Shown here piece after piece: positions 2,258-14,143 of a stretch of 14,441 nucleotides of DNA. The notes under the pieces are model-generated. The model had not been told where the DNA came from and did no database searches. It worked only from the letters and a program-made list of their open reading frames with translations. This DNA comes from a bacterium (GTDB lineage: Bacteria; ARS69): assembly GCA_025774805.1 (NCBI GenBank), contig JALGZR010000090.1, positions 15,625 through 30,065 of the forward strand. The letters run 5' to 3'. The stretch's first letter is position 1, and each line of letters opens with the position of its first letter. The translations under genes were made by a program, and so were the position numbers.

Positions 2258-4060
2258 CTACTGCTGGGATCCCATCCTCTGACGCAGGCGCTCGAACGCC
2301 TCACCCATCGAGGTGAGTCCGGAGTCGGGCGATCCGGATCGCTGGTGCTCCTCCCGCGACACCCGTCGGTGCTCCGAGTCCCGCTGCTTTCCGGAGCGTC
2401 GTCCCCCCTCGCGTCGACCCTGTCCGCCCCCCTCTCGCCGGGCGGGGGCGACCGCCGGATCCACGAAAGAGAGCGAGACCCTCCGCGCACCGCGATCGAC
2501 CGAGACGACCCAGACCTCCACCGTCTGTCCCGCCTCGACGATCTCCGACGGGTGCTTCACGCGGTGATCGCTCGCCAGGGCGGAGACGTGGATGAGGCCG
2601 TCGACACCGGGGAAGAGCTCGACGAACGCGCCGAAGTCGACGAGGCGGACGATCTTTCCCTCGACCTTCTCACCGGGAACGAGCTTTTCCGCCGCCTCGT
2701 CCCACGGGTCGGACTCGAGCCGCTTCCGTGAGAGGCTGATGCGCTCGCTCTTCTTTCCCAGATTCTCCACTCCCACGACCTGCACCTCGATCGACTGCCC
2801 CACCTCGAGGACCTCGGCCGGGTTCTTCACGCGGGAGTGGCTGATCTCCGAGACGTGAATCAGCCCGTCGATCCCGCCCAGATCCACGAAAGCCCCGAAG
2901 GGTCGGATCCGCGCGACCGTCCCGCGGAGCACCTGCCCGACCTCGAGGGTCTTGCGGAGCTCGTCCGCCTTCTCACGAGCCTCCTCCTCCACGTGTGCCC
3001 GACGGGAGAGAACGACGTTCTTCCCCCGCTCGTCCGCGGAGGAGACCCGGAACGTCAACCTCTTGCCGACGAACTCGGCGGGGTTCTCCACGTAGTGGCG
3101 ATCGATTTGGGAGAACGGGCAGAAGGAGCGGACTCCCATGACGTTGACGACGAGGCCACCCTTGTTGACGCCCGTCACCTTTCCGGTGACGGGGACTCCG
3201 GCTCGGACGGCCTCGAGGACCGCCGGCAGATTGCCCGGCACGCGACCGGCCTTGAGAGAGAGCTTCACGCCTCCCTCGACCCGAACGACCATCGCGCGGA
3301 CGGTGTCGCCGACCTTCCGCGTGAGGTTGCCTTCGGCGTCCTTCATCTCTCGGATGTCGATGACGCCTTCCTCTCGACCCCCGAAATCGACGAAGGCGCT
3401 GTCCTCGCCGATCTGAATGATCTTGCCGCCCAGCCGTCGACCCTTCCGCGGGGTGACGAGCGGTTTCTCCTTCGCCGTCGCCGCCTCGAGCTGTTTCGCC
3501 GTATCCGCCGCGCTCGCGACGACCGGTCCCGCCGGCGCTGGAACGGCCGTCGGGTCGGCCGGCTTCTCTCCGGCGGGCCGCTCCCCGGCGGGCGGCTCGT
3601 CCGACGCCGGTGCCTCCGCGTCCGGAGCGCCCCCTGCCGCCGCCGGTTTCTCCTCGGCGGGCCGCTCCTCCGCGGGCGGCTCGTCCGACGCCGGTGCCTC
3701 CGCGTCCGGCGCGCCCCCTGCCGCCGCCGGTTTCTCCTCGGCGGGCCGCTCCTCCGCGGGCGTCCCGTCCGCGACCTTCCCCCCGGAATCCGGTGCCTTC
3801 TCGATCGGAGCGCTCTCCGCGCGGGGAGCCGCGCGCTCCCCCGCTTCCGGTTCGGGATCGGCCCCGGCGGGAGGGGAATCGCCGTCGACCGTGGCGGCGT
3901 CGGGCGGGACGGGCGGGCTCTCGATCGGCGGCAATTCGGCCGCTGCGGTCTCGGCGGGGGCCTCGGCGCCGCTCACGGCTTCCTCGGGTCGGTCCGGGCG
4001 ACTCTCGTCCGAGGAAGGGCTGGAGGACGGGGAGGCTTGGTCAGGGGGTCGGGAATCCAT
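2258..4060 (-). CDS. rpsA: Ribosomal protein S1-like protein, four S1 domains with acidic N-terminal extension
   Basis: This 600-residue protein binds RNA and probably helps mRNA bind the 30S subunit. It has four S1 (OB-fold) domains at about 210-270, 288-354, 374-445 and 461-533. Domains 3 and 4 are canonical (FGAFVDLGGIDGLIHVSEIS and FGAFVELFPGVDGLIHVSAL). Domain 2 has the divergent GGLVVNVMGVRSFCPFSQID form typical of S1 proteins. Residues 1-200 are Pro/Ala/Glu-rich low complexity, including 28-residue repeats at about 100-168. Residues 540-578 are a basic Arg/Gly-rich tail. The E. coli protein has six domains, so this one is shorter in domains but extended at both ends. It could instead be an S1 paralog rather than the only ribosomal S1. 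The ATG at 4060 is preceded by GGAG at eight bases. The gene stands alone. Confidence 0.82.
   Translation of the reverse strand: MDSRPPDQASPSSSPSSDESRPDRPEEAVSGAEAPAETAAAELPPIESPPVPPDAATVDGDSPPAGADPEPEAGERAAPRAESAPIEKAPDSGGKVADGTPAEERPAEEKPAAAGGAPDAEAPASDEPPAEERPAEEKPAAAGGAPDAEAPASDEPPAGERPAGEKPADPTAVPAPAGPVVASAADTAKQLEAATAKEKPLVTPRKGRRLGGKIIQIGEDSAFVDFGGREEGVIDIREMKDAEGNLTRKVGDTVRAMVVRVEGGVKLSLKAGRVPGNLPAVLEAVRAGVPVTGKVTGVNKGGLVVNVMGVRSFCPFSQIDRHYVENPAEFVGKRLTFRVSSADERGKNVVLSRRAHVEEEAREKADELRKTLEVGQVLRGTVARIRPFGAFVDLGGIDGLIHVSEISHSRVKNPAEVLEVGQSIEVQVVGVENLGKKSERISLSRKRLESDPWDEAAEKLVPGEKVEGKIVRLVDFGAFVELFPGVDGLIHVSALASDHRVKHPSEIVEAGQTVEVWVVSVDRGARRVSLSFVDPAVAPARREGGGQGRREGGRRSGKQRDSEHRRVSREEHQRSGSPDSGLTSMGEAFERLRQRMGSQQ
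3561..3767 (-). repeat. 84-bp tandem repeat inside the S1-protein gene
   Basis: Positions 3600-3683 and 3684-3767 are direct copies with an 84-bp period, identical at 81 of 84 bases. A degenerate third partial copy runs over about 3561-3599. Each unit encodes 28 residues of the form PPAEERPAEEKPAAAGG, then an acidic APDAEAPASDE. The period is a multiple of three, so copy number can change without breaking the frame. The near-identity points to a recent duplication. Confidence 0.9.
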
Positions 4061-4366
4061 CGGTGGCGCTCCGTGGGTCGTCTCCGGCGGCGGCCGGGCT
4101 CGTTCCGTTACCTACCGGTCGCCGGGAGGACTCTTGTTCATCCTTACTCACGACCGGACACACAGACAAACATACCATTTCTGGAGGCAGGAATCCCCCT
4201 TGTTCGTCGAAGCTGGTAGAATCTGCTCGTGTATTCGGTTCCCGCGAGTACCGGCATGACGCAAAAAAGCCCGCCCGGAAGGGATCGGAGACGCTGAACT
4301 CCCTCCGCGCAACGTCCGAGGCCGGGCCGGGTATGCGGGGCGGAGTATTCCCGATCGGAGGCCTGC
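4061..4366. other. Divergent intergenic region between the S1 gene and ftcD
   Basis: This 306-bp gap separates two divergently transcribed genes and should hold both promoters. Its centre, about 4130-4230, is visibly richer in A+T than anything else nearby. It holds the extended -10 candidate at 4215-4223. For the minus strand, TTGTCT (4170-4165) is a possible -35 with a poor -10 17 bases on. An A6 run lies at 4263-4268. I see no convincing small gene, riboswitch or long inverted repeat. Confidence 0.6.
4215..4223 (+). promoter_or_regulatory. Candidate extended -10 promoter for ftcD
   Basis: TGGTAGAAT fits the extended -10 pattern (TGn followed by TAGAAT, five of six matches to TATAAT), and this type of promoter does not need a good -35. 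It lies in the A+T-richer centre of the divergent region. Transcription would begin near 4230, leaving a leader of about 137 nt. Confidence 0.35.
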
Positions 4367-6064
4367 ATGCAACGTATCGTCGAGTGCGTCCCGAACTTCA
4401 GTGAGGGCCGGGATCGCGAGAAGATCGACGCCATCACCGGAGTCATCGAGACGGTGCCGGGCGCCACCCTCCTGGACGTGGATCCCGGTGCCGACACGAA
4501 CCGCACCGTGGTGACCTTCGTCGGCGATCCGGACGCGGCCGTCGAGGCCGCCTTCCGGGCGATCGCCGAAGCCGCCGAGCGGATCGACATGCGGGAGCAC
4601 TCGGGAGCGCATCCCCGCATGGGGGCGACCGACGTCTGTCCGTTCGTCCCGATCCGAGGGTTGACGATGGAGGACTGCGCCGAGCTCGCTCGCCGACTGG
4701 GACGCCGGGTGGGCGAGGAGCTCGGGATCCCCGTTTACCTCTACGAGCACGCCGCGTCCAAGCCCGAGTGGAAGAATCTGGCCAACGCGCGCAGCGGGGA
4801 GTACGAGGGCCTCGCCGCCCGCGAGGGCAAGCCGGAGTGGAAGCCGGACTTCGGCCCGGACAAGTTCCAGCCGAAGGTGGGGGCGACCGCGATCGGGGCC
4901 CGCGAGTTCCTGATCGCCTACAACGTCAACCTCAACACGCGGTCCCGGAATCTGGCCCACGACATCGCCCTCGACATCCGCGAGCGGGGCCGACGCCGGA
5001 GGGACGAGATGGGCAAGGCGATCCGGGACGAGAACGGGAACTTCGCGATGGCCCCGGGACTGCTCCGCGAGTGCAAGGCGGTCGGCTGGTACATCCCCGA
5101 GTACGGCGCGGCTCAGATTTCGATCAACCTCACGAACTACCAAGTGACCGCGATTCACGACGCCTTCGATGCCGTGGAGGCGGGAGCGGCGAAGCGCGGC
5201 ATGAGGGTCACGGGCAGCGAGATCGTGGGGCTCGTTCCCCTGGAGGCGATTCGAAGAGCCGGGATCCACTACCTCTCGAAGCAGGGGTCCTACGTCGGAG
5301 TCACCGAGCGCGAGCTCGTGCACATCGCGGTCAAGAGCCTCGGCCTCCACGACCTCTCTCCTTTCGACCCGAACGAGAAGATCGTCGAGTACCGCCTGCG
5401 GCGAGAGGGCGCGCTCGTCGATCGCAGCGTCCACGACTTCGCGGACGAGCTGTCGAGCGACAGCCCGGCGCCCGGGGGAGGAAGCGTCGCCTCTCTGATG
5501 GGCTCCTTGTCCGCCGCCCTCTCCGCCATGGTGGGCAGCCTGACGTTCGGGAAGAGGGGTTACGAGACGGAGTGGGAAGAGATGGGGCAGATCGGCCTGG
5601 AGGCCCAGGTCCTCAAGGACGAGTTCCGCCTCGACATCGATCGGGATACCGACGCGTTCAACGACCTGTTCGCGGCCATGAAGCTGCCCAAGAAGACGGC
5701 CGATGCCGCGGCCATCCGAGACGCGGCGATTCTCGAGGCGACCAAGTGGGCGACCGAGATCCCCCTCGGGGTCTTGGAGCGAACGATTCGAACCGCGGAG
5801 CTCGCGCGGGAGGTCGCGGCCCGCGGCAATAGGAACTCACTCTCCGACGCGGGCGTCGCCGCGCTGGCCGCGCGGGCGTGCGCGGAAGGGGCCTACTACA
5901 ACGTCCTGATCAACCTCGACGGGCTGGCCGATCCGGAGTGGGCCCAGAAGACCCGGGAGACGGCGAGCGGGGCTCTGTCCCGGGTCCGGGCGATCACCGA
6001 CGGGATCGGGAAGGACGTGCGGGAGAGACTCGAGAGCGCTTTGTCGGCCCCGCAAGAGGTCTGA
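4367..6064 (+). CDS. ftcD: Bifunctional glutamate formimidoyltransferase / formimidotetrahydrofolate cyclodeaminase
   Basis: This 565-residue fusion moves the formimino group of N-formimino-L-glutamate to tetrahydrofolate and then cyclises it to 5,10-methenyl-THF with release of ammonia, the last steps of one histidine degradation route. The transferase part spans about 1-335, with CVPNFSEGRD at 7-16 and HSGAHPRMGATDVCPFVP at 78-95. His82 matches the catalytic histidine of the mammalian enzyme even in number. The cyclodeaminase part spans about 352-560, with SDSPAPGGGSVASLMGSLSA at 364-383, DTDAFNDLFAAMKLPKKT at 427-444 and GNRNSLSDAGVAALAARA at 487-504. Both active-site regions look intact. 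GGAGG lies five bases before the ATG. No hutH, hutU or hutI is in the window, so the fusion is isolated from the rest of the pathway here. It is convergent with the kinase gene, 36 bp away. Confidence 0.95.
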   Translation: MQRIVECVPNFSEGRDREKIDAITGVIETVPGATLLDVDPGADTNRTVVTFVGDPDAAVEAAFRAIAEAAERIDMREHSGAHPRMGATDVCPFVPIRGLTMEDCAELARRLGRRVGEELGIPVYLYEHAASKPEWKNLANARSGEYEGLAAREGKPEWKPDFGPDKFQPKVGATAIGAREFLIAYNVNLNTRSRNLAHDIALDIRERGRRRRDEMGKAIRDENGNFAMAPGLLRECKAVGWYIPEYGAAQISINLTNYQVTAIHDAFDAVEAGAAKRGMRVTGSEIVGLVPLEAIRRAGIHYLSKQGSYVGVTERELVHIAVKSLGLHDLSPFDPNEKIVEYRLRREGALVDRSVHDFADELSSDSPAPGGGSVASLMGSLSAALSAMVGSLTFGKRGYETEWEEMGQIGLEAQVLKDEFRLDIDRDTDAFNDLFAAMKLPKKTADAAAIRDAAILEATKWATEIPLGVLERTIRTAELAREVAARGNRNSLSDAGVAALAARACAEGAYYNVLINLDGLADPEWAQKTRETASGALSRVRAITDGIGKDVRERLESALSAPQEV

Positions 6065-10933: not shown

Positions 10934-11054
10934 GGGGTGCACGTGCTCCCTCTCATCGGCGGGTTCCGGCCCGGGATTGAAGAGACGCGTTCTTGACACC
11001 CGGCGGGCCCTGTCCGACGCTTTCCCCCGATCAGCGAGGGTCCTTCCCCGGCGC

Positions 11055-11060
11055 GAGGAG
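11055..11060 (+). promoter_or_regulatory. Ribosome binding site fixing the ATG start at 11068
   Basis: GAGGAG lies seven bases before ATG 11068. The frame is open from 10993, but that ATG has no such site, so the start at 11068 is preferred. Confidence 0.6.
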
Positions 11061-11067
11061 ATCGCGT

Positions 11068-12414
11068 ATGGATCCCGACGCCCGCCCGCGTCCTCTGAGG
11101 GAGGCGGGGGCCCGCCTCGTGACGCGCGTTCGCGCGGACCGTTTGCTGCCGATCCTCTGCGTCCTCTGGATCGCGGCGCGCTTCCTTCCCGTCCCCGCAC
11201 TCGAACCGACGGTTCGCCTCTCGCTCGAGTCGATCCGGGTCCGCTCCTCTCCGATCACCGGGCGGTTTGAAATCGTGCCCGACCCCGACGATGCCATGCG
11301 AGGCGTGTGGGGTCCGAGGAACCCCCACTTCGAGGTTCCCGCGAGCCGTCTGGCGGGGGCCGTCTCGGAGGCAAACGACGGACTGTCCGAGATCGGGAGT
11401 CGAATCGCGGCCCGGGTGGAGGCCTTCCCCGACCGTTCGGCCGCCTTCCGGGTCTCCGGGCTGCTCGTCCCCTTCTACGGCCGTTCCGCGGAGCTTCTCG
11501 TGGAGGCGCGCGACACGGCGGGAGATCGTCCGAGGATCGCTCTGTCGACGATTGCGGAGATCCTGGAGACGCGTCTGGGGGAGCCGCGGGACGATCTCGT
11601 TCTCGAGGACACGACGCGCCTTCGCGATCTCACCCGCACCGTTCGGGAGATTCGCGATGCGATCGGCGATTCCGGCGCTTCCCTCGTGGGAGCTCTGGAC
11701 GATTTCCGCCTTGGAGCGAGCGAGATCGCTCGCCGCGCCTCCGGTCCCTTTCAGCGCCGAGGCCCGGGGAGAATCCTCGAGATCGTGCTCGCCGCGATGA
11801 TCGGAGCCGCGCTGCACGGCGTGCTTCGCCCGCGCTCCCCGCCCGCGAACCCGCTTCTCCCGCTGACGTTCGCCCCCGCGCTGGCCGCGGCCGTCCTGCT
11901 CTCGCTCGAGGGTACTCCCTTCCTGCCCGTCGACCCGGTCCAGGGGCTGACGCTCGCCTTCCTTCCGGCCGCTCTGGTGATCGGCTACGGTGGGGCCGCC
12001 GCGTTCCCCTCCCGGGTGTCCCGGATCGAAACGGAGGTTTCTGCGGCGGCCCCTTCGGCGGAGCGGTCCCCTGCGTCGAAGCCCGTCTCTCCGGCCGGCA
12101 CCCCCGCGCCCGACTCCCCGGCCCCGCGGGTCGCACCGGCACCTCCCTCGCCCTCCGTGCGAGAGTCCCCGGCACGGTCCGAGCGGGAGGTTCCGGAGGA
12201 TCCCGGTCTTCGAACCGGGAGAGAACCTCGAACGCCGACGACACCCGCCTCGATGCCGACGCGAATTGTCGCGCCGCCCGCGGCCCGTCCCTCCCCGCCG
12301 CCTCGATCAACCCCGACCCGCGAGCCCCGTCCGCCGGCGCCGACGCGAACGCCCCCGCCCTCCCCCGTCGAGAGAAAGGTCCCCTTCTTCCGGAGAAGGC
12401 GTCCGGGGTCTTGA
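11068..12414 (+). CDS. Uncharacterised membrane protein with proline-rich C-terminal tail
   Basis: No family is recognised. The 448-residue protein has an N-terminal helix at about 25-41 (LLPILCVLWIAARFLPV). A soluble segment at about 45-232, with mixed strand and helix character, probably lies outside the cytoplasm. It includes amphipathic helices rich in Arg and Asp around 160-225. Three hydrophobic helices follow at about 236-254, 264-281 and 292-312. Residues 320-435 form a low-complexity Pro/Ala/Ser/Arg/Thr tail, closing with KVPFFRRRRPGS. With four helices the tail would be cytoplasmic if the N-terminus is cytoplasmic. The even codon use and the ribosome site argue that it is a real gene. 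It is divergent from the small membrane protein (145 bp) and convergent with the radical SAM-like gene, whose stop is 53 bp away. Confidence 0.72.
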   Translation: MDPDARPRPLREAGARLVTRVRADRLLPILCVLWIAARFLPVPALEPTVRLSLESIRVRSSPITGRFEIVPDPDDAMRGVWGPRNPHFEVPASRLAGAVSEANDGLSEIGSRIAARVEAFPDRSAAFRVSGLLVPFYGRSAELLVEARDTAGDRPRIALSTIAEILETRLGEPRDDLVLEDTTRLRDLTRTVREIRDAIGDSGASLVGALDDFRLGASEIARRASGPFQRRGPGRILEIVLAAMIGAALHGVLRPRSPPANPLLPLTFAPALAAAVLLSLEGTPFLPVDPVQGLTLAFLPAALVIGYGGAAAFPSRVSRIETEVSAAAPSAERSPASKPVSPAGTPAPDSPAPRVAPAPPSPSVRESPARSEREVPEDPGLRTGREPRTPTTPASMPTRIVAPPAARPSPPPRSTPTREPRPPAPTRTPPPSPVERKVPFFRRRRPGS

Positions 12415-12466: not shown

Positions 12467-13210
12467 TCAGGATCCGGAGAAGTCGCGACGGTCGACGATC
12501 GTGGAGTCATCGAGAAACGCGCCCGCGCTCGCGTGGACGGCTTGGCGGACCCGCTCGAGGGCATCGGGCAGGCCCTCCTCCGCCGCGTCCGGAGCGGGGA
12601 TCACGAATACACGGTCGGGGCGGATGCGACGCACGCAGCGCGCCCAAGCCTCCACGGACGCGCGGGTGTCGTTTCTCCCGGGATGGACCGGAAGCTCGAG
12701 CGCGACTCCCGTCGGCGTCTCCCGCCGGAGCGAAGCGACCCCCTCGACGTGAACCTCGAACGCCTCCCTCCGCTCGAGGCCGCGGGGATCTTCCGCCGAA
12801 TCCTCCAGAGCGGGAAGCCAGGCCGCGATGATCCCCGCCTCTCCGGCCTCCCGGCGCGTGTCGCGGTCGCGCAGGAGGATCCCGTCGGTCAGGACGACCG
12901 TGGTGACGTGGGCGGAGGTGCGGAGACGGCGGAGAACGGGTCCGAGGCTCCGGTGCCGAAGGGGATCCCCCGGCCCCCCGAACACGACCGCGTCGACCGC
13001 CGCCCCCCGGTCCAGGGGGGTGAGGATGGCGCGGAGCACCGCCTCGGGAGCGCTGTAGTGGGTGCGCCGCAGGGTCTCCGGGGAGCGGGCGAGCACGTTC
13101 TCGTACCGGCCCGGCCGCCCGGGGGGAGGGCCGGGCGCGATCTCGACGAAGAGCACGCGACCAAAGCGTACCGAGTCGCAGGGCTCGTGAACGACGGGGG
13201 CGAAGGCCAT
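12467..13210 (-). CDS. Radical SAM-like protein without the cluster cysteines (COG0731-like pseudoenzyme)
   Basis: This 247-residue protein follows the pattern of COG0731-type radical SAM proteins. The N-terminus SVRFGRVLFVEIAPG (13-27) fits the 'SRRLG.SLGVDLVP' strand. VDAVVFGGPGDPL (72-84) fits the strand with the GGE-like loop. VVLTDGILLRD (105-115) fits 'VLTNGSLL'. GEAGIIAAWLPALEDS (123-138) fits 'ADLVLPSLDA'. HPGRNDT (176-182) and RRIRPDRVFVIPAP (194-207) complete the barrel. The loop that should carry CxxxCxxC instead reads GPPPGRPGRYEN (27-38). The only cysteines in the protein are Cys11 and Cys192, so no 4Fe-4S/SAM chemistry of the usual kind is possible. I infer a repurposed or inactive fold. 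The ATG at 13210 has GGGAGG close before it. It is divergent from the transpeptidase-like gene. Confidence 0.72.
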   Translation of the reverse strand: MAFAPVVHEPCDSVRFGRVLFVEIAPGPPPGRPGRYENVLARSPETLRRTHYSAPEAVLRAILTPLDRGAAVDAVVFGGPGDPLRHRSLGPVLRRLRTSAHVTTVVLTDGILLRDRDTRREAGEAGIIAAWLPALEDSAEDPRGLERREAFEVHVEGVASLRRETPTGVALELPVHPGRNDTRASVEAWARCVRRIRPDRVFVIPAPDAAEEGLPDALERVRQAVHASAGAFLDDSTIVDRRDFSGS

Positions 13211-13214
13211 GCGC

Positions 13215-13220
13215 CCTCCC
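13215..13220 (-). promoter_or_regulatory. Ribosome binding site fixing the ATG start at 13210
   Basis: GGGAGG on the minus strand lies four bases before ATG 13210. The in-frame ATG at 13267 has no comparable site, so the shorter 247-residue product is preferred. Confidence 0.6.
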
Positions 13221-13303
13221 GGGTGACTCGGACGGACGGAGACGGCATTTTCGGCAGTGGGGACCATCGTGTAAAGTAGAGGTGAAGCAGTTCGGGAGGT
13301 TCC

Positions 13304-14143
13304 ATGCCCGCCGTCGCCATCGTCGCCTCGATGCTCGTCTCGTCGCCTCCCCCGGTGATGGATCACTTTCCGGAAGAACAGAACCCGTCCCAGGTGCTGC
13401 TCGTCGAGGATCTCCGATCCGGGGAGACGATTCGGAGGGAGAACGCCGGGGCGGCCGAGGAGATCCGTTTCCCCCTGGGCGAGTCGGCGCGATTGTTGTT
13501 CGCCCTCGCGGGGCTGGAGGAGCGATTGCTCGATCCGAGACGGAGGGTCCCCTGCGATTCCCTCTGCTGGGCGCGGGGCGGCCACGAGCTCGCCGACCTC
13601 TCCATGGCGGTCGCGTTCTCCTGCGATGCTTACTTCCGCTCGCTCCTTCCCGAGATCGGAGGAGAGCCCATTCGCCGCCACGCCCTTCGCGCGGGGTTCG
13701 GGCCGGACGTACCCTCCGCGACGGCGATCGAGAGCGCGGACGGTTTTCCGGGGGACGGGTGGAGCGCCACGGCCCGCCAGTGGATCGAGTTCTGGAGAGG
13801 TGTACAGAGGGGCACGCTCGGGCTGCGCTCCGCGACGACGTCGGCACTTCTCGCCGCGAGCGGAATGGCGGTCTCCTCCCCCCGCGGACTCGCCCGGGGT
13901 CTCCACGATCCCGTCCGTCGCGTCCGGGCCGCCGTCGGTGACACCGAAGAGGGAGCCTGGGTCACGGGAATCCGCCACCTCCGGGGAGGTGGACCCTGGT
14001 TGTTCGCCCTCCACGTTCGCGGGGCCACCGCGTCTCTGGTGACGGCACGGGCGGACCACATCCTGCGCGAGACGATCCGCACCTGGGAGCACACGTCACC
14101 GAACCGGGTGGGGCGCCCGCTCCCCCCCGTGACCGAGCGATAG
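13304..14143 (+). CDS. Penicillin-binding-protein-like transpeptidase domain with altered catalytic motifs
   Basis: The 279-residue protein resembles the transpeptidase domain of high-molecular-weight PBPs and class D beta-lactamases. VLLVEDLRSGETIRREN (31-47) fits the opening strand. FPLGESARLLFALAGLEERL (56-75) fits 'PPGSTFKLVTALAALE'. VPCDSLCWARGGHELADLSM (82-101) and AVAFSCDAYF (102-111) fit the 'CW..GGHG.vdL..AL..SCN.YF' block. EGAWVTGIRHL (216-226) fits the KTG strand. By this alignment SxxK is ExxR (Glu60, Arg63), SxN is SCD (106-108), and KTG is VTG (220-222). Ordinary acyl-serine catalysis therefore looks lost. A short hydrophobic N-terminus (AVAIVASMLV) may be a weak export signal, although it lacks positive charge. 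GGGAGG lies four bases before the ATG, and an in-frame TGA at 13283-13285 rules out a longer form. A serine hydrolase relative with other chemistry is the alternative. Confidence 0.68.
   Translation: MPAVAIVASMLVSSPPPVMDHFPEEQNPSQVLLVEDLRSGETIRRENAGAAEEIRFPLGESARLLFALAGLEERLLDPRRRVPCDSLCWARGGHELADLSMAVAFSCDAYFRSLLPEIGGEPIRRHALRAGFGPDVPSATAIESADGFPGDGWSATARQWIEFWRGVQRGTLGLRSATTSALLAASGMAVSSPRGLARGLHDPVRRVRAAVGDTEEGAWVTGIRHLRGGGPWLFALHVRGATASLVTARADHILRETIRTWEHTSPNRVGRPLPPVTER

Follow-up and report, generated by a model that had tools for sequence, protein, structure and literature searches.

What would a protein with a PBP-type transpeptidase fold do once its catalytic residues are lost? This question is raised by an open reading frame at positions 13304 to 14143 on the plus strand of the window, the stretch of 14,441 nucleotides analysed here, which an earlier note had described as a transpeptidase-fold protein in which all three PBP motifs are altered. 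The frame runs without interruption for 279 codons, from an ATG at 13304 to a stop codon that ends at 14143, and a likely ribosome-binding site (GGGAGG, 13294 to 13299, plus strand, read from the sequence) lies 4 nt 5' of the ATG, in agreement with the intact frame and strong ribosome site described in that note. A scan for sigma-70 promoters on the gene's strand found none, although the sigma-70 model says little for the host organism.

The small phylum to which the host belongs has an ortholog with 44% amino-acid identity in one other genus (G004, MAG contig JALGZO010000644.1). When the two genes were compared, the differences per codon position were 0.43, 0.34, and 0.61, with the third position differing most. 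The corresponding dN of 0.57 and dS of 1.32 give a dN/dS of ∼0.43, with the reservation that a dS above 1 is imprecise. For the same pair of genomes, PBP2 had a dN of 0.32, a dS of 1.04, and a dN/dS of 0.31, and the radical-SAM-like neighbor of the gene had values of 0.41, 1.16, and 0.35, respectively. Since the dN/dS of the gene under study is somewhat above those of these genes, the constraint on it is moderate. The window contains many overlapping spurious open reading frames, as would be expected if this one, too, were not a gene and had stayed open by chance because the DNA is GC rich. This reading is refuted in practice by the 44%-identity ortholog, the third-position excess, a PBP2 match with an E value of 1e-7, and a coherent predicted fold, and we give it almost no weight. 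From these sequence comparisons, positions 13304 to 14143 clearly constitute a real coding gene under constraint, which we describe as a pseudo-transpeptidase gene on the basis of its frame, PBP2 similarity, fold, and purifying selection.

The NCBIfam PBP2 model TIGR03423 matched the 279-aa protein with an E value of 1.2e-7, but its score of 30.6 bits against a curated cut-off of 455 does not place the protein within class B PBP2 (MrdA). PBP2 chains in the PDB also matched it (E=4e-5 to 1e-3). The Pfam Transpeptidase model (PF00905) returned an E value of 0.09, under the model's cut-off, so counts based on PF00905 would miss this protein. A match to a class D beta-lactamase family was sought in Pfam and NCBIfam and none was found; the SxxK serine is absent as well. 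The PBP2-like domain starts at about residue 28, and the N-terminal anchor and pedestal domain of class B PBP2 are absent.

The structure was predicted with AlphaFold2 from a 36-row alignment, also used for the motif assignments, that included 27 PBP2s and 4 intact short homologues. This model (pLDDT 69, pTM 0.68) had a best structural match with a Z score of 18.4 and an rmsd of 3.7 over 242 aligned residues. A control prediction from the five pseudoenzymes described below, in the absence of any PBP2 row, was poorer (pLDDT 59.6, pTM 0.53), and its best matches were again PBPs and OXA enzymes (Z 11.0, rmsd 5.2, 221 residues aligned). OXA-1 itself was matched with Z scores of 17.3 by the 36-row model and 10.4 by the five-row control. 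Both models therefore have the PBP-type transpeptidase fold, as judged by their Z scores to PBP structures (18.4 and 11.0) and by the order of their secondary structure elements, and because the control found this fold too, the assignment is independent of the PBP2 rows. Based on these results, the protein is a PBP-type transpeptidase domain that is by sequence nearest to PBP2 (MrdA). The PBP/class D framework proposed earlier is thus real as a PBP framework; PBP2 rather than class D beta-lactamases is the better sequence match, though the fold is common to both. The comparison of predicted models with known structures, which the earlier note had suggested as a check, gave a PBP/OXA fold and not an unrelated one.

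In the alignment, the SxxK position carries serine and lysine in 27/27 PBP2s and in 4/4 intact short homologues, whereas the window protein reads E60-S61-A62-R63 (13481 to 13492, plus strand); [ED]xxR is found in all five pseudoenzymes. No other intact SxxK is present in the aligned domain, so the proposed ExxR replacement is borne out. The second motif gives a different result. S106-C107-D108 (13619 to 13627, plus strand) had been taken for an altered SxN, but SxD is the form found in 23 of the 27 aligned PBP2s (SxN in 4/27), and the PBP2 of the same genome reads YAPGSTFK, SCDTYF, and AGKTGTAE at its three motifs. These comparisons rule out SCD as an alteration; it is motif 2 in its intact PBP2 form. 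The KTG position on strand beta3 is occupied by A210-V211-G212 (13931 to 13939, plus strand; strand 207-213 in both models), with both Lys and Thr lost, and reads LTG in the G004 ortholog, so the KTG lysine is missing from both proteins. V220-T221-G222, proposed earlier as the KTG site, was rejected, as residues 217-225 form the next strand in both models and W219-V-T-G222 (13958 to 13969, plus strand, strand beta4) aligns with the WFVG/WFIG of PBP2. The claim that all three motifs are altered therefore stands as written for SxxK, stands for the loss of KTG at a site one strand earlier, and does not hold for SCD.

The retention of motif 2 may be linked to a predicted zinc site. In Acinetobacter baumannii PBP2, zinc is held by D350, D365, H371, and C384, of which C384 is the x of SxD; the site lies ∼10 Å from the catalytic serine and is required for stability and cell shape but not for bocillin binding, and Cys can stand for Asp at the first ligand position (PMC9974482). 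All four positions are filled in the alignment of the window protein, by C84 and C88 (13553 to 13567, plus strand, from the first residue to the second) at the D350 and D365 positions, by H94 (13583 to 13585, plus strand) at the H371 position, and by C107 of motif 2 at the C384 position. The spacing of C88-H94-C107 is identical to that of D365-H371-C384 in the pairwise match, whereas the pairing of C84 depends on how a shortened loop is aligned. C84, C88, H94, and C107 are all present in the G004 ortholog, which also keeps E60/R63 and SCD (including D108), the residues whose conservation in homologs had been named as a check in the earlier note. We infer that the 279-aa protein binds zinc as a structural pin, and a retained zinc site of this kind would simply explain why SCD survived the loss of SxxK and KTG. 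Purifying selection has preserved the fold and the residues of the predicted zinc site in both orthologs, which agrees with the earlier view that the gene is not simply decaying. In a separate observation, 27/27 PBP2s from many phyla had a suitable residue at each ligand position (C/D, C/D, H, C), a sample biased by having been picked for similarity to the query; this spread is wider than the mainly proteobacterial one reported previously (PMC9974482).

The serine, the SxxK lysine, and the KTG lysine are gone in both orthologs. In PBPs and serine beta-lactamases, the acyl-enzyme route requires the catalytic serine. With the serine and both lysines missing, that route would be closed by established mechanism, and the protein would not be expected to form an acyl-enzyme with either peptidoglycan stems or beta-lactams. 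The non-catalytic reading of the earlier note is thus supported in that ordinary serine transpeptidase or beta-lactamase function should not be possible for a protein of this sequence. It is very probable that canonical catalysis has been lost and that the protein is a non-acylating pseudoenzyme. It is also conceivable, but unlikely, that the protein is still an enzyme, with the conserved pair E60/R63 (or D/R) serving as a new active site for a different substrate. The invariance of [ED]xxR in five proteins from two phyla exceeds what is expected of free positions, as such altered chemistry would predict. The KTG lysine is lost as well, however, the remaining motifs differ between the two groups of proteins, and we know of no enzyme of the PBP fold with a Glu or Asp nucleophile at the position of the SxxK serine. 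An acid and an Arg are equally explained by a salt bridge that holds the helix; such a bridge between E60 and R63 could stand in place of the Ser-Lys pair, a detail beyond the confidence of the models.

The protein is probably exported, as suggested by sequence features. Residues 1-14 (13304 to 13345, plus strand) form a hydrophobic stretch that is a possible export signal by hydropathy (2.42 over 11 aa), but this signal is weak and has no positively charged start. Relatives in a second phylum have lipoprotein-type signals. Considering these results together, the explanation that we favor, with a probability of roughly 0.6, is that the gene encodes a stand-alone, probably exported PBP2-type pseudoenzyme that does not acylate and probably has a binding or regulatory role, with non-covalent binding as the mechanism that we would guess first. 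A fold and a zinc pin kept under selection without catalysis suggest binding, which might use the old active-site cleft or the surrounding surface. Its ligand could be the stem peptides of peptidoglycan or a wall-synthesis protein, and the protein might act as a scaffold, competitor, or sensor alongside the cell's four normal transpeptidases. Binding to peptidoglycan or to the wall machinery as its specific role is put forward tentatively, with the odds somewhat against it. The suggestion in the earlier note that the protein binds muropeptides or regulates another enzyme is, to the same degree, plausible and no more.

In its genomic context, the pseudoenzyme gene stands alone, with minus-strand genes on both sides, and none of its neighbors is a known wall gene; the four ordinary transpeptidases are encoded in the same genome. 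Its left neighbor, 36 bp away, is a divergent radical-SAM-like gene (12467 to 13267, minus strand; NCBIfam E 1e-3) that lacks CX3CX2C and is also beside the pseudoenzyme gene in G004. The orthologs of this neighbor in G004 and in a second relative, G002, retain only CRYC, and it is possibly a second pseudoenzyme adjacent to the first. Further left, a gene at 10993 to 12414 (plus strand) encodes a putative membrane protein whose tail is rich in proline and which has no Pfam or NCBIfam match; by eye, a similar-looking gene is found by the radical-SAM-like gene in both G004 and G002. In G004, the pseudoenzyme gene sits exactly between SGNH-type hydrolase-like and radical-SAM-like genes, on the other strand. 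In G002, a relative rated 100% complete, these two genes (L065:3123-5089) are not separated at all, as the radical-SAM-like one runs into the end of the SGNH-like one, which leaves a clean site without the pseudoenzyme. The pseudoenzyme gene is therefore accessory: some lineages acquired it, or others lost it.

This patchy occurrence (2/5 genomes of the phylum), the joined neighbors in the complete relative, and a dN/dS slightly above that of the neighbors are what one would see if a duplicated PBP domain had lost its activity and were now drifting as a functionless relic. Drift, however, would bring stop codons or random motif loss, and the frame has instead stayed open in two genera at 44% identity, with dN well under dS and with the E/R pair and the four zinc-ligand residues kept. 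We consider such a relic unlikely: because a distant ortholog keeps the same changes, the protein is most likely a working non-enzyme and not junk. The counterweights to the favored reading of a non-covalent binder are the weak export signal, the presence of just two orthologs in its own phylum, the complete relative without the gene, the moderate constraint, the lack of a known wall gene among the neighbors, and the loss of most zinc ligands in the second phylum.

About 600 genomes were searched in all, including 386 across many families in which at most 6 candidates per genome were scored. Within the searched genome contigs, the only homologue of the window protein recovered was again the one on the G004 contig, and no homologue was found among viral contigs. 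PBP-fold proteins with [ED]xxR were found in at least five of the ∼600 genomes, a count from which rare members may be missing. Three further phyla (132, 5, and 82 genomes), selected for the proximity of their PBP2s in the tree, yielded no pseudoenzyme at E≤1e-20, in sets that held no positive control.

The other three carriers came from a second small phylum, of which all seven available genomes were searched. These short proteins lack SxxK and have DxxR or ExxR in its place (G240, G388, and G368; loci L046/L053, L054, and L055), have the lipoprotein-type signals LLSC, LAGC, and TAGC, read PCA or PCR at motif 2, and lack KTG. Among the zinc residues, just C84 and C107 occur in every one of the three proteins, so a complete zinc site is not a common feature of proteins with [ED]xxR. 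An isochorismatase-like gene follows the pseudoenzyme gene in G240 and G388, and a carbamoyltransferase-like gene adjoins it in G240.

The proteins of the two phyla might belong to a single ancient family of pseudoenzymes, spread by descent or by transfer, which would be compatible with the non-covalent binder that we favor. All five share F-x-x-G-[ED]-x-x-R and a similar short layout, and a tree forcing both groups into a single clade was not rejected (AU p=0.418). The free tree, which has long branches and little signal, does not join them, and their gene contexts are unlike. In profile comparisons, the window pair scored 122.8 against the intact short homologues, 98.6 against PBP2, and 76.5 against the second-phylum trio, whereas the trio scored 111.5 against PBP2 over 246 columns; this last match is favored by the inclusion of second-phylum proteins in the PBP2 set. 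A single family is thus a possible reading that we do not favor, and it seems somewhat likelier that the two groups lost catalysis independently and both arrived at acid-x-x-Arg.

Among known systems, the window protein resembles class B PBP2 (MrdA; A. baumannii 7zg8, Campylobacter jejuni 8yjx) in its fold, in an FPLG that corresponds to the YPPG-like turn before the active-site helix, and in a CW..GH..L..SCD.YF block with the zinc-ligand positions. It differs from these proteins in lacking SxxK, KTG, and the transmembrane anchor-pedestal, and in its size (∼280 versus ∼600 aa). The intact short, exported PBP2-like proteins (L047, L048, L049, and L051), which have the top profile score to the window pair, are likewise stand-alone (∼270-310 aa) and share the CW..GH..SC block, but they retain SxxK and KTG and are presumably catalytic. 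They are seemingly an uncharacterised group; the gene of one (L051:2711-3649) lies end to end with a SpoIID/LytB-like gene (3592-4800). Class D beta-lactamases (OXA) and the sensor domains of BlaR1/MecR1 share the overall fold, but no family-level sequence match to them was found, and they are acylated on the SxxK serine that the window protein lacks. Bacillus subtilis PBP 2B, with its catalysis-independent structural role, is a precedent for a PBP that functions without catalysis, although PBP 2B is catalytic in nature and was inactive only as a mutant made by engineering (PMC5656894).

A literature search for inactive or pseudoenzyme PBPs found no natural case among the papers covered, and PBP-fold proteins that naturally lack the catalytic serine have apparently been described scarcely at all. 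A more far-reaching proposal, which we regard as speculative and rather improbable, is that these proteins represent an undescribed class of exported PBP pseudoenzymes, with a fixed acid-x-x-Arg for SxxK and a zinc pin kept in the window's phylum, reached independently in two little-studied phyla, that would, without catalysis, sense or occupy the stem peptides of the wall or adjust the activity of the elongation machinery. If the pseudoenzyme that we favor is real, the PBP fold can persist for binding alone and its zinc site is separable from catalysis, and the protein would provide a natural non-acylating probe of substrate recognition by transpeptidases.
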